Below, piece after piece: positions 46,912 through 55,236 of a stretch of DNA of 64,000 nucleotides (within the stretch, counting starts at the first letter, position 1; the number at the start of each line of letters is the position of its first letter). Below the pieces are notes generated by a model. It did no database searches and was not told the origin of the DNA. It saw only the letters and a list, made by a program, of their open reading frames with translations. The stretch is taken from assembly GCF_013085465.1 (NCBI RefSeq), contig NZ_CP049838.1, positions 2,976,001-3,040,000 of the forward strand, given 5' to 3'. The stretch is from Streptomyces asoensis. Its GTDB lineage: Bacteria > Actinomycetota > Actinomycetes > Streptomycetales > Streptomycetaceae. The translations under genes were made by a program, and so were the position numbers.

Positions 46912-48321
46912 ATGTTCCAGAACGCCGACGAGGCCAAGAAGTTCATCGCGGACGAGGACGTCAAGTTCGTCGACGTCCGCTTCTGCGACCTGCCGGGCGT
47001 CATGCAGCACTTCACGCTGCCCGTCGAGGCGTTCGACCCGGACGAGGAGCTCGCCTTCGACGGCTCGTCGATCCGTGGTTTCCAGGCCATCCACGAGTCC
47101 GACATGGCGCTGCGCGCCGACCTGTCGACCTCGCGCGTGGACCCGTTCCGCCGTGACAAGACGCTGAACATCAACTTCTTCATCCACGACCCGATCACGG
47201 GCGAGCAGTACTCCCGTGACCCGCGCAACGTGGCGAAGAAGGCGGAGGCGTACCTGGCGTCGACCGGTATCGCCGACACCGCGTACTTCGGCCCCGAGGC
47301 CGAGTTCTACGTATTCGACAGCGTGCGCTTCCAGACCTCCGCGAACGAGTCCTTCTACCACATCGACTCCGAGGCCGGCGCCTGGAACACCGGTGCGATC
47401 GAGAACAACCGCGGTTACAAGGTCCGCTACAAGGGCGGCTACTTCCCGACCCCGCCGGTCGACCACTTCGCCGACCTGCGTGCGGAGATCTCCCTGGAGC
47501 TGGCCGCGTCCGGCCTCCAGGTCGAGCGCCAGCACCACGAGGTGGGCACCGCCGGCCAGGCCGAGATCAACTACAAGTTCAACACGCTGCTCGCCGCGGC
47601 CGACGACCTCCAGCTCTTCAAGTACATCGTGAAGAACGTCGCCTGGCGCAACGGCAAGACCGCGACCTTCATGCCGAAGCCGATCTTCGGCGACAACGGC
47701 TCGGGCATGCACGTCCACCAGTCGCTGTGGACCGGCGGTTCCCCGCTGTTCTACGACGAGGCCGGCTACGCGGGTCTGTCGGACATGGCCCGCTACTACA
47801 TCGGCGGCATCCTCAAGCACGCCCCGTCGCTGCTGGCCTTCACCAACCCGACGGTGAACTCCTACCACCGTCTGGTCCCGGGCTTCGAGGCCCCGGTCAA
47901 CCTGGTGTACTCGCAGCGCAACCGCTCCGCGGCCATGCGTATCCCGATCACGGGCTCCAACCCGAAGGCCAAGCGCGTCGAGTTCCGCGCGCCCGACTCC
48001 TCCGGCAACCCGTACCTGGCGTTCTCCGCCCTGCTGCTCGCGGGCCTGGACGGCATCAAGAACAAGATCGAGCCGGCCGAGCCGATCGACAAGGACCTCT
48101 ACGAGCTGGCCCCCGAGGAGCACGCGGGCGTCGCGCAGGTCCCGACCTCGCTCCCGGCCGTCCTCGACCGCCTCGAGGCGGACCACGAGTTCCTGCTCGC
48201 CGGTGACGTCTTCACGTCCGACCTGATCGAGACGTGGATCGACTACAAGCGCACCAACGAGATCGCCCCGCTCCAGCTGCGCCCGCACCCGCACGAGTTC
48301 GAGCTCTACTTCGACGTGTGA
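46912..48321 (+). CDS. glnA: glutamine synthetase, type I (GSI-beta)
   Basis: The 469-residue GSI makes glutamine from glutamate, ammonia and ATP as a dodecamer. Visible are the N-terminal [30 protein letters not shown] with metal-binding His, and [21 protein letters not shown]. The adenylylation loop [10 protein letters not shown] carries the Tyr (about 397) modified by GlnE. The RBS is GGAGGAG before ATG 46912. Regulation should combine GlnR and adenylylation. Its last codons and stop are duplicated at 55223-55236, so the present 3' end borders an integrated island. Confidence 0.97.
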
Positions 48322-48322
48322 T
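48309..48322 (+). repeat. left direct repeat of the island (in glnA 3' end)
   Basis: CTTCGACGTGTGAT covers the last three codons and stop of glnA. The identical 14 bp recur at 55223-55236. Read as attL of the island. Confidence 0.7.
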
Positions 48323-48425
48323 ATCGCCCCAGGTCAGAGCACCTGTTTGCTCTCCTGGGCCGTCTGTGGGCCGTCGGTCGTGCTCTTCCCACTCCGGGAA
48401 GCGCGCGGCCGGCGGCCTTTTGCGT

Positions 48426-48779
48426 TCACGGTCCGGGAGACACTCCCTTTTCGGGGTAGGCACACGGCACACACATGCCGAGGGACGGCGGGATGACGTA
48501 TCCGGCGTCACGTCGGCACTGAGGGCAGGTGCGGCGGGCGGTGTTGGCCTTGGCCAGAGCCGCCCACCGAGCCGGCGTCATGGGGCGTACCGCTTGGCCA
48601 GGTCGACGCGGTAGAGGTAGGCGACCAACGGTTCCCGGCGGCGGGGCCGTTCGAGCTGAGCGGCCACATCCTGACCACCCGGGGTGCAGATTCCGGGCCC
48701 GAAGCTGTCGGCGGGTGGCGTAGCCGTCCGGGGCCAGGTGCCACCGGTAGACCGGCAGCGTGCTCATGCCGCGCCGCAC
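48426..48779 (-). pseudogene. AICE-associated RRQL-motif protein with two compensating frameshifts
   Basis: The N-terminus (LPVYRWHLAPDGYATRRQLRARNLHPG) and C-terminus (VRPMTPARWAALAKANTARRTCPQCRRDAGYVIPPSLGMCVPC, with CxxC pairs) are in one frame. The 30 residues between are in another. Reading the next frame gives GGQDVAAQLERPRRREPLVAYLYRVDLAK, the expected family sequence. One extra base near 48678-48684 and one missing base near 48591-48595 account for it. The residual 117-aa reading frame is open, but its centre is nonsense. Members of this family accompany spdB in streptomycete integrative elements. Confidence 0.7.
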
Positions 48780-49351
48780 CGTCCGGGACGGCGTCCGGCG
48801 ACCGACCCGAGCAGCCGCCCGAGACGGGCCCGGCGGGGCCCGGACCGGCCGGACCGCTTTGCCGCGTACATGGCCTCGTCAGCGCGGCGCAGCAGCGCGG
48901 ACAGGTCCTCGCCCGGATGGTCGGCGGCCCGCACCCACCCGAGGGACACCGTGGCGTGCACTTCGGGGTTGGTGTCGACCGGTCGGGCGAGGACGCGGGC
49001 GAGGGTGTGAAGCCGGTCGGCCATGGTGCCGTCGCGGTCGACGACGACGGCGGCGAATTCGTCCCCACCGAGCCGTCCTGCGACACCGCCGGGCGTGGTG
49101 CCGTGGGCGAGGCGAGCGGCGACCGTGGCGAGCAGGACGTCACCGGCGGCGTGGCCGTGGGTGTCGTTGATCTGCTTGAAGTGGTCGACGTCCGCCAGCA
49201 CGACCACAGCGCCGGGGTCTCGCAGCAGACGGCGGGCCCGCCGGGCGAACGCGTCCCGCGTCCACAGCCCGGTCAGCGGGTCACGGCGGGCCGAAGTCAG
49301 CCGTCCGTGCAGCCACCGGGCGTGTACCGCCCACCCGAGAGCGGGCGGCAC
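48764..49351 (-). CDS. GGDEF-domain protein (putative diguanylate cyclase) of the element
   Basis: The 195-residue reading frame holds a GGDEF domain with substrate Asp in VVVLADVDHFKQINDTHGHAAGDVLL, active site GRLGGDEFAAVV and C-terminal VSLGWVRAADHPGEDLSALLRRADEAMYAAKRSG. It should make cyclic di-GMP if expressed. The expected start is GTG 49378-49380, overlapping the spd stop as GTGA, but it is out of frame with the domain by one base. Only GTG 49351 remains in frame, so the N-terminus (normally a membrane segment) is lost. Confidence 0.75.
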   Translation of the reverse strand: MPPALGWAVHARWLHGRLTSARRDPLTGLWTRDAFARRARRLLRDPGAVVVLADVDHFKQINDTHGHAAGDVLLATVAARLAHGTTPGGVAGRLGGDEFAAVVVDRDGTMADRLHTLARVLARPVDTNPEVHATVSLGWVRAADHPGEDLSALLRRADEAMYAAKRSGRSGPRRARLGRLLGSVAGRRPGRCGAA

Positions 49352-49376
49352 GGCCGGTAAGAGCGCGGCGAGGTGC

Positions 49377-54377: not shown

Positions 54378-54424
54378 TGGCGGCGCCAGGATTCGAACCT
54401 GGGAAGGCTGAGCCGGCAGATTTA
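54378..54424 (-). tRNA. orphan 3' fragment of tRNA-Tyr (attachment-site scar)
   Basis: On the minus strand these 47 nt match the 3' half of a streptomycete tRNA-Tyr. They run from the 3' side of the anticodon loop (TAAATCTGCC) through the long variable arm (GGC-TCA-GCC hairpin), the T-arm (CCAGG TTCGAAT CCTGG) and the acceptor strand CGCCGCC with discriminator A. The 5' half is absent, replaced by coding sequence of a secreted protein. tRNA-Tyr 3' ends are known attB sites for AICEs such as SLP1, so this is read as an att half-site. Confidence 0.8.
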
Positions 54425-54745
54425 GGAATCTGTCTCACAGAGCGCATATGCTCGAATGTAGGCGGGGTAGCCATCGGCGGCGGCCTTCCAAGTATTCGGC
54501 TCATCGGCTGATGGTGCATTTAGGATCACAGGGCCCGATGAAACCAAGTAGTATCCACCCCCGATCAGATGAGTGCCTTCAGGGCAGGTCGCCTCTGAGT
54601 GCTGGCCTAGAGGCCCTTCAACCACCGTGGAGCTCACAGCCTCCGCTGTGGACGCGGTTGCCAAACCCAATGCGGTTGTGGTGGCGACCAGTGAACCAAC
54701 CGCAGCGGCCCGGAACCACCAGATTCTGAGGCTTACTCGATTCAT
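54422..54745 (-). CDS. small secreted protein of unknown function (107 aa)
   Basis: A classical signal peptide (MNRVSLRIWWFRAAAVGSLVATTTALGLATASTAEA, cleavage after residue 36) precedes a 70-residue mature domain. This has two Cys (EATCPEGTHLIGGGYYLV ... YALCETDS) and a Gly/Tyr-rich middle typical of small exported beta-proteins. Its TAA stop (54422-54424) belongs to the tRNA-Tyr fragment, so recombination at this site fixed the C-terminus. The promoter lies in the 54.75-54.9 kb TGATCA-rich region. No family assigned. Confidence 0.65.
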   Translation of the reverse strand: MNRVSLRIWWFRAAAVGSLVATTTALGLATASTAEAVSSTVVEGPLGQHSEATCPEGTHLIGGGYYLVSSGPVILNAPSADEPNTWKAAADGYPAYIRAYALCETDS

Positions 54746-54796
54746 GCGATCGGCCTTCCTCGCGTAACAAGTCTCCCGGTCAGACCACCGTAAGAC

Positions 54797-54874
54797 TGAT
54801 CACTGCCGCTCGCATCTGCCGACCCAATGCTGGAAATCTTTGGTGATCACAAACCCTCGTGATCGTCGTGATCA
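54797..54874. promoter_or_regulatory. TGATCA repeat cluster upstream of the secreted protein
   Basis: TGATCA occurs at 54797, 54844 and 54869, with TGATCG at 54860, all within 130 bp of the ATG at 54745 in otherwise GC-rich DNA. The last two form a GTGATC direct repeat at 9-bp spacing. It is a candidate operator. The rest of the gap to 55222 shows no supported gene. Confidence 0.4.
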
Positions 54875-55222
54875 AGTGGGGCGTGGCTGCAGAACTCGTC
54901 AGTGCTTACGTGGACGTTCTGGCGTTGGTAACCGTCCTTTTCGCAAAGTACGCGGTACAGCAGCGAGGTACATCAACCGCGCTGCCTCGTACCGACCATG
55001 AGTGACCCTCATAGACCTTCTGACCGGCCCGAAGAAGCTCAGCAACCTCCGTGCCCGTAGTTCGCATCGAGGGGGAACACCACTACACCGCCGCTCGGGC
55101 CGTCCCTGGGCCGTGCGGGGGTGCTCAACGACGACCAACGCTGACAACCACCGACAACCAAGCCTCAGGTCGCAGTGTCGGTCGACTACGTAGCCGCAAG
55201 CCAGGAACCCGCCGCTTCACTT

Positions 55223-55236
55223 CTTCGACGTGTGAT
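55223..55236 (+). repeat. right direct repeat of the island (glnA 3' end copy)
   Basis: CTTCGACGTGTGAT is identical to 48309-48322. The bases after it (CGGCCCCGG) resemble those after glnA (ATCGCCCCAGG). Read as attR. Confidence 0.7.

Follow-up and report, generated by a model that had tools for sequence, protein, structure and literature searches.

The 3' end of glnA, which encodes a central enzyme of nitrogen assimilation, appears to be used as an attachment site by integrative elements in Streptomyces. The case examined here is a 64,000-nucleotide stretch of the Streptomyces asoensis chromosome (bases 2,976,001-3,040,000 of a 10.04-Mb single-contig genome), which we refer to as the window and whose own numbering is used throughout. 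A 6.9-kb island lies in it directly behind glnA and is bounded on each side by a copy of the last codons of that gene. This island is almost certainly what decay has left of an actinomycete integrative and conjugative element (AICE) that a tyrosine integrase inserted at the glnA end. The evidence consists of the direct repeat, an empty site in relatives of the host, arms that the island has in common with other elements, the integrase genes that such elements carry at the same site, and the absence of these genes from the island.

The direct repeat and the empty site

The glnA gene (46912..48321, plus strand; PF00120/PF03951) is 95-98% identical in DNA sequence to its best relatives, and its last four codons form the attachment core. 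The sequence CTTCGACGTGTGA occupies 48309..48321 as the left core (attL) and 55223..55235 as the right core (attR), both on the plus strand, and the T that follows is also common to both copies; with it the exact repeat, in the same orientation, is the 14-mer CTTCGACGTGTGAT at 48309-48322 and 55223-55236. With up to two mismatches allowed, the one further match in the window is at 33071, and three hits occurred in 0 of 100 shuffles. A sequence-only reading of this DNA had proposed that an island entered the 3' end of glnA and had taken the 14-mer as its repeat. The exact recurrence was borne out, but across the element family the core is 13 nucleotides, its final bases being the stop codon, and the 14th base is a T that is identical in element and host at this site. 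The same reading had treated the similar CCCC runs behind the two copies as one feature, and this has to be given up: the left run belongs to the arm of the element (CGCCCCAGGTCAG, common to other elements) and the right run to the host flank. Just before the right core, the right arm of the island ends in TTCACTT (55216..55222, plus strand), and of 10 right copies at glnA, 8 have CACTT just 5' of the core, the exceptions being L073 and L205.

Past the right copy, a strong hairpin was correctly anticipated; it folds at 55300..55338 (plus strand) and is followed by a host-flank open reading frame (ORF) of 106 amino acids (aa) at 55343..55663 (plus strand). Comparison with relatives lacking the island had been named beforehand as a check, and the empty site was found in 19 of the 29 best glnA matches in the same genus (the search returned 30 loci, including that of the window itself). 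At these 19 sites a GC-rich hairpin and a homologue of the 106-aa ORF follow the glnA stop codon with neither left arm nor island, the ORF beginning 7-121 nucleotides (nt) past the stop by extrapolation from tblastn. The hairpin, now 7 kb from the glnA stop, is probably the native terminator of the gene. Among the ten relatives whose site is not empty, four (L032, L035, L037, L060) have the left arm and six (L033, L039, L045, L046, L053, L056) have something else after glnA; in L053 an imperfect second core, AGTTCGACGCGTGATC, lies in tandem right behind the gene and is possibly a scar.

Integrase-bearing relatives and the decay of the island

The pattern TTCGACGTGTGATATCGCCCCAG, which joins the glnA end to the left arm, was found with up to two mismatches in 19 of 392 Streptomyces genomes, the window's included. 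Downstream DNA of the other 18, and of G087 and G107, was fetched up to contig ends or a 20-kb limit. A second core (up to one mismatch) follows in nine of the 19 (G000, G325, G237, G301, G248, G020, G326, G084, G286), 1.5-18 kb from the first and directly preceded by CACTT in eight of the nine. A near-full relative of the integrase of locus L080 is encoded in six of the 19 (G301, G020, G243, G352, G325, G062), and fragments of it in three others (G084, G248, G286); a match of 22 residues in G324 was left uncounted. The domain PF00589 scores above cut-off in L080, and matches to it also lie at the glnA site in G301, G020 and G325. Tyrosine integrases are thus found beside the glnA 3' end in relatives, as the sequence-only reading had suggested should be looked for, and together with the empty sites they support its proposal of insertion by a tyrosine-integrase strategy.

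Two relatives are especially informative, L080 and L083, whose integrases are 93% identical and which have the core at both ends (15.8 and 14.3 kb between cores, respectively). Reading away from glnA, each has an integrase gene on the opposite strand that converges on glnA, an ORF of 575 or 577 aa in the position of rep, and tra; beyond tra come a protein of 108 or 111 aa and then frames of GGDEF and DUF2637 type. Both accordingly have the integrase beside an att site and the FtsK/SpoIIIE-type Tra (PF01580, above cut-off) by which AICEs are recognized. In a further locus, L081, an HTH_17 ORF adjoins the integrase gene in the place that a xis gene would have.

The island in the window begins with a left arm (48322..48449, plus strand) that shares 94% identity over 128 bp with the arm of L078, an integrase carrier. 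This match stops at 48449, and a match to L080 starts at 48453, in the gene found past int, rep and tra in that locus; the junction (48449..48453) lacks these three genes, and no part of them was found elsewhere in the island. What follows is a 117-aa ORF (48426..48779, minus strand) whose C-terminal end extends into the left arm and which is about 60% identical to the 108-aa L080 protein, and then, also on the minus strand, a GGDEF-domain protein (48764..49351; 74% identity to its L080 counterpart), a membrane-type DUF2637 protein (49377..50246; C-terminal half 63% identical to L083), which we take to resemble the Spd spread proteins, and a DUF6284 protein (50275..50544; 71% identity to an L080 frame). 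A winged-helix, MarR-like protein (51087..51422, minus strand; below curated cut-offs) is possible cargo, as which we also class a methyltransferase-domain protein (51531..52304, plus strand) and a weakly PP2C-like protein (53009..53818, plus strand; below the curated cut-off, with pieces common to elements L082 and L083). The 3' half of a tRNA-Tyr(GTA) gene (54378..54423) and a 107-aa ORF that has no Pfam family (54422..54745) complete the island, both on the minus strand.

None of the 17 PF00589 matches of the genome falls in the island, and none of the nine island ORFs scanned has a Tra- or Rep-type domain. With direct repeats at a specific site, and neither an integrase gene nor Tra (FtsK/SpoIIIE) or Rep genes, the island is by its gene content a remnant and not a working AICE, and a single loss, about 7.9 kb long on the scale of L080, would be the simplest account of the missing genes. 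In other bacteria, cis-mobilizable elements (CIMEs) keep their att sites after loss of integrase and transfer genes. The window island is like them in having att sites and no integrase, a likeness drawn here from sequence alone, and unlike them in that no relative of the glnA-family integrase that might act as a helper was found in the window's genome at E<=1e-100. Shorter scars of 0.6-1.8 kb that keep the left arm lie behind glnA in L071, L077, L084, L088, L089 and L090; those of L071 and L088 contain a small ORF (about 170 aa) whose product looks secreted.

The history that we propose begins with an AICE tyrosine integrase, presumably like that of the relatives, which would have recombined a 13-bp attP core with the identical last four codons of glnA (Phe-Asp-Val-stop). 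Integration would supply glnA with the copy of its end that the element carries and leave its protein unchanged, would place the hairpin pair of the element directly behind the stop codon, where it would probably take over the termination of transcription, and would displace the native hairpin to the far end of the island. Between about 48449 and 48453, a subsequent loss would then have removed the stretch that holds int, rep and tra in the relatives, leaving attL, some genes of the transfer region, cargo and attR.

Several observations weigh against this history. There is no integrase in the window, and the act of integration has therefore to be read from the relatives. The ORFs of 575 and 577 aa that we deduce to be replication genes of L080 and L083 have no Pfam match; relatives of this type of ORF with up to 69% identity to that of L080 occur in plasmid records, annotated as ATP-binding or virulence-associated E family proteins. 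Five of the 19 genomes (G013, G353, G226, G324, G293) have no second core in the fetched DNA and so have either decayed or had a different history. Five more could not be assessed, or the fetch stopped too early: G352, G164 and G062 are covered by a short stretch or contig, G243 has none in nearly 20 kb, and G027 is the stacked case described below. Finally, the tRNA-Tyr fragment marks the island as a mosaic, in which a second element or recombination event was also involved.

The first of these points might suggest that the island came by homologous recombination or with a transposon, the 14-bp repeat being chance or a scar of micro-homology, and insertions resembling insertion sequences do occur near glnA in a relative (L033/L075, with a 460-aa ORF judged transposase-like by eye, no family search having been made). 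We consider such an origin highly improbable, because the same arms and core recur at the same nucleotide in other genomes, where integrases point at the core. Less remote, though still unlikely in our view, is a stack of two elements, with the remnant of a glnA-type AICE at left and part of a tRNA-Tyr-type one at right. The tRNA-Tyr 3' half at 54378-54423 would be explained by it, as the same half also lies 3.4 kb from an intact tRNA-Tyr(GTA) gene at 5.94 Mb of the same genome (G000:C1:5941598-5941623 and 5945010-5945035), an arrangement that suggests a further element remnant there (tRNA-Tyr is the SLP1 site); stacking at glnA is also seen in genome G027, described below. Against it, the island has only one tRNA-Tyr half and no integrase, and both of its outer ends are of the glnA type. 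Insertion of one AICE at glnA, followed by decay, stays the preferred account.

The kind of element is well known. The portions of the survey by Ghinet et al. (2011, PMC3218068) drawn on here place the vast majority of AICEs with tyrosine integrases in tRNA genes, the exception being the pSLS sub-family, all of whose sites are outside tRNA genes. The glnA elements resemble the surveyed AICEs in their PF00589 integrase, PF01580 Tra, insertion at a gene 3' end and direct repeats, and differ from most of them in using a protein-coding gene with a 13-bp core; they can be likened to the pSLS sub-family in choice of site, by description rather than by sequence, and the insertion places of that sub-family are identified by locus tag only in the consulted part of PMC4891635. 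Among AICEs of a Streptomyces population, 36 were in tRNA genes, 14 in protein-coding genes (rlmN is named) and one was intergenic, according to the main text of PMC9513070. Its elements, some of them decayed, are similar to ours in their protein-coding sites (with 11-nt repeats at rlmN), in decay that leaves direct repeats and cargo and in the stacking of several elements at one site; they are dissimilar in that glnA is absent from that main text, to which Supplementary Table S5 is additional. Nor do the consulted portions of PMC12884075 and PMC11755657 name glnA among attachment sites, and its use as one was not found in the open-licence papers, which form the scope of this search as distinct from supplements and subscription papers. 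To that extent the literature agrees with the sequence-only reading, which had called glnA no known attachment gene, and we provisionally regard the AICE as a known kind of element at a new site. As a repeatedly used attachment site, the glnA 3' end would add att pairs for Streptomyces genetics.

Probable target gene ends of the integrase family and of a second lineage

A scan of named genomes returned 308 relatives of the integrase, and the results that follow rest on the best 80 of them. All 17 integrases with at least 81% identity are encoded at the glnA 3' end, 15 of them within 1.2 kb of glnA; the other two (L093, L103) are separated from it by about 1.5 kb and have the left arm immediately 3' of glnA. 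One of the 17 is in Actinomadura, whose GlnA is 72% identical to that of the window. No second core was seen in the 10-kb flanks of these 17 loci, because the flanks mostly end short of it, and the second copies reported above come from separate fetches. Among the 63 integrases at 77% identity or less, none (0/63) has glnA within 1.2 kb. A later fetch placed L204 (81%) and L205 (77%) at glnA and gave no glnA in the fetched DNA of L206 (77%); the rule that at least 81% identity predicts a glnA target was dropped on account of L205.

ARAGORN, which does detect the intact tRNA-Tyr in L202, found no tRNA within about 1.2 kb of the integrase 3' end at 65 loci (L106-L170), and protein-coding neighbors were therefore examined. 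Identified from the C terminus of the nearest gene ending before the integrase, the neighbors of the 63 are phosphoglycerate-mutase-like (23), CAP-domain (12), NusG (4), hydrolase (4), murA-like (3), a second glutamine synthetase (2), cytidylyltransferase (2) and other or unclear (13). Pfam agrees for one representative in each of the seven named groups, and identifies one of the "other" neighbors as a Na+/H+ antiporter; within their Pfam families, the names murA and phosphoglycerate mutase are our assumption. Direct repeats were found at 8 of the 12 CAP-domain loci and at 6 of the 23 mutase-like loci (16-26 nt, versus 9-12 nt in reversed controls), where the gene is in many cases 400-870 nt from the integrase end; the repeats at two of the four nusG loci are weak (12 nt, versus 9-10 nt in controls). 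The search gave no convincing repeat for the hydrolase, second glutamine synthetase and cdsA targets, for which adjacency is thus all that we claim, and the murA-like att pair is known from one locus, L207, with a right core that differs by one base. Two wider-family integrases, L163 and L170, are next to the 3' end of a different glutamine synthetase gene (by Pfam on L163) whose end is unlike that of glnA (5 of 13 places); no clear repeat was seen there, and the branches of these two are distant from the glnA group.

Where both ends are seen, the att layout is shared: a 13-bp core ending at the stop codon and a right arm that in most cases ends in ACTT, with CACTT before the core in the eight CAP-domain loci with a repeat and AACTT in the murA-like pair. 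On a tree of the 80 integrases the nine target labels need 11 changes, with a minimum of 8 and 49.4 for shuffled labels, a clustering that near copies inflate and in which "other" is a mixed label; the glnA users need one change (support 92). They need two on a more careful tree of 40 integrases, to which three rows were added, because L108 falls inside the glnA group yet lies elsewhere. A single glnA clade is not rejected (p-AU 0.48), and an exclusive clade of glnA users was thus neither shown nor rejected. At L108/L206, a glnA-group integrase at a place that has no glnA, TCGCGCATTTGA stands right before the arm sequence CAGGTCAG; it resembles the murA-like core somewhat and may be a secondary site.

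The careful tree also orders the gene ends. Its 12 integrases at glnA ends of the Asp-Val-stop type (CTTCGACGTGTGA, in one case CTACGACGTGTGA) form one nested clade (99/96), outside of which fall seven at Asp-Ile-stop ends (CTTCGACATTTAA and close variants); the murA-like clade, with core CCGCGACATTTAA, stands next to the glnA group, and the two together have 100/100 support. The CAP-domain members use CTTCGGCTTCTGA. For comparison we took 533 background gene ends (560 sampled, minus 27 ends of target genes). The Asp-Ile core CTTCGACATTTAA is matched at 10 and 11 of 13 places by the two murA-like ends tried, and at 9 or more places by 0 of the 533; the Asp-Val core is matched at 10 or more places by the CAP core, as it is by 4 of the 533. 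Ends of nusG, mutase-like and second glutamine synthetase genes match at only 4-5 of 13 places, and any such ladder therefore covers only part of the family. With moderate confidence we favor the view that one integrase family spread over protein-coding 3' ends by small steps between look-alike ends, and that a second lineage arrived separately at glnA. Clades that mostly keep to a single gene end, and cores whose likeness is graded between neighboring clades, would constitute a natural series for the study of integrase retargeting.

The second lineage was recognized in G027, where another element, with frames like a tail tape measure protein and an FtsK/SpoIIIE-like protein, lies immediately behind glnA and encodes an integrase 28% identical to that of the first lineage. 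An AICE left arm is found behind the right end of this element, and two kinds are thus stacked there. At E<=1e-120 this integrase is present in 7 of 384 genomes and adjoins glnA in all seven; the loci of the lineage are L087 and L210-L222. Six of the seven were fetched in addition to G027, and each has a second copy of the glnA end 8.9-15.3 kb away, with 22-29 bases identical (10-13 in reversed-sequence controls), a core about twice as long as the 13-bp one. In L219 and L087 the left copy has TAA at its end and the right copy TGA, as expected if glnA now stops at a codon brought by the element. Two very different lineages of elements thus appear to dock at the same glnA end, and the separate arrival of the second would make glnA a recurrent dock in Streptomyces.

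Hairpins behind the glnA stop codon

The left arm of the island can be folded into two hairpins, both on the plus strand and both supported by alignment folds. Hairpin 1 (48325..48362) has a z score of -4.3 against 200 shuffles. Hairpin 2 (48368..48418; z -6.3 against 200 shuffles) has TTT behind it and is a candidate terminator, placed between glnA and the integrase gene that in relatives converges on it. An alignment of 24 arms shows the outer stem of hairpin 2 paired in almost all of them, and at 5 of 27 pairs at least one arm has both sides changed with pairing kept; a smaller set of 14 arms gave 2 of 36. Because most stem pairs are invariant, support from covariation is modest. Termination by these hairpins may be proposed from their place, stability and conserved pairing, and an element-borne stop codon with hairpins would then be a testable case of an element that takes over the 3' untranslated region of a host gene.

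It is possible, though we lean away from it, that the hairpins are mainly DNA repeats bound by integrase or excisionase and not an RNA terminator. Both CAGGTCAG and GGGCCGTC, which is present twice, resemble protein-binding repeats, and CAGGTCAG also occurs behind the murA-like, CAP-domain and second glutamine synthetase target genes; the invariance of most stem columns points the same way, and a simple terminator scan passed over hairpin 2 and gave no clear excess over shuffles (5 versus 3.1, standard deviation 2.2). Against such a role stand the five pairs changed on both sides with pairing kept, the inner stem of hairpin 2 in L205, which has another sequence and yet is complementary by eye, and the position of hairpin 2 between two convergent genes, often with a T-rich tail. 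The two roles may also be combined. Rfam gave three matches in 46000-57000, all far below gathering scores and none credible, and ARAGORN found no tRNA in the window.

Farther into the host flank, a HEAT-like gene at 55746 was tried as a synteny anchor and proved poor, with scattered matches in 63 of 150 genomes. Equal-scoring copies of this gene are found near both ends of the chromosome (G000:C1:10696-12006 and 10032295-10033605), as terminal inverted repeats would give.

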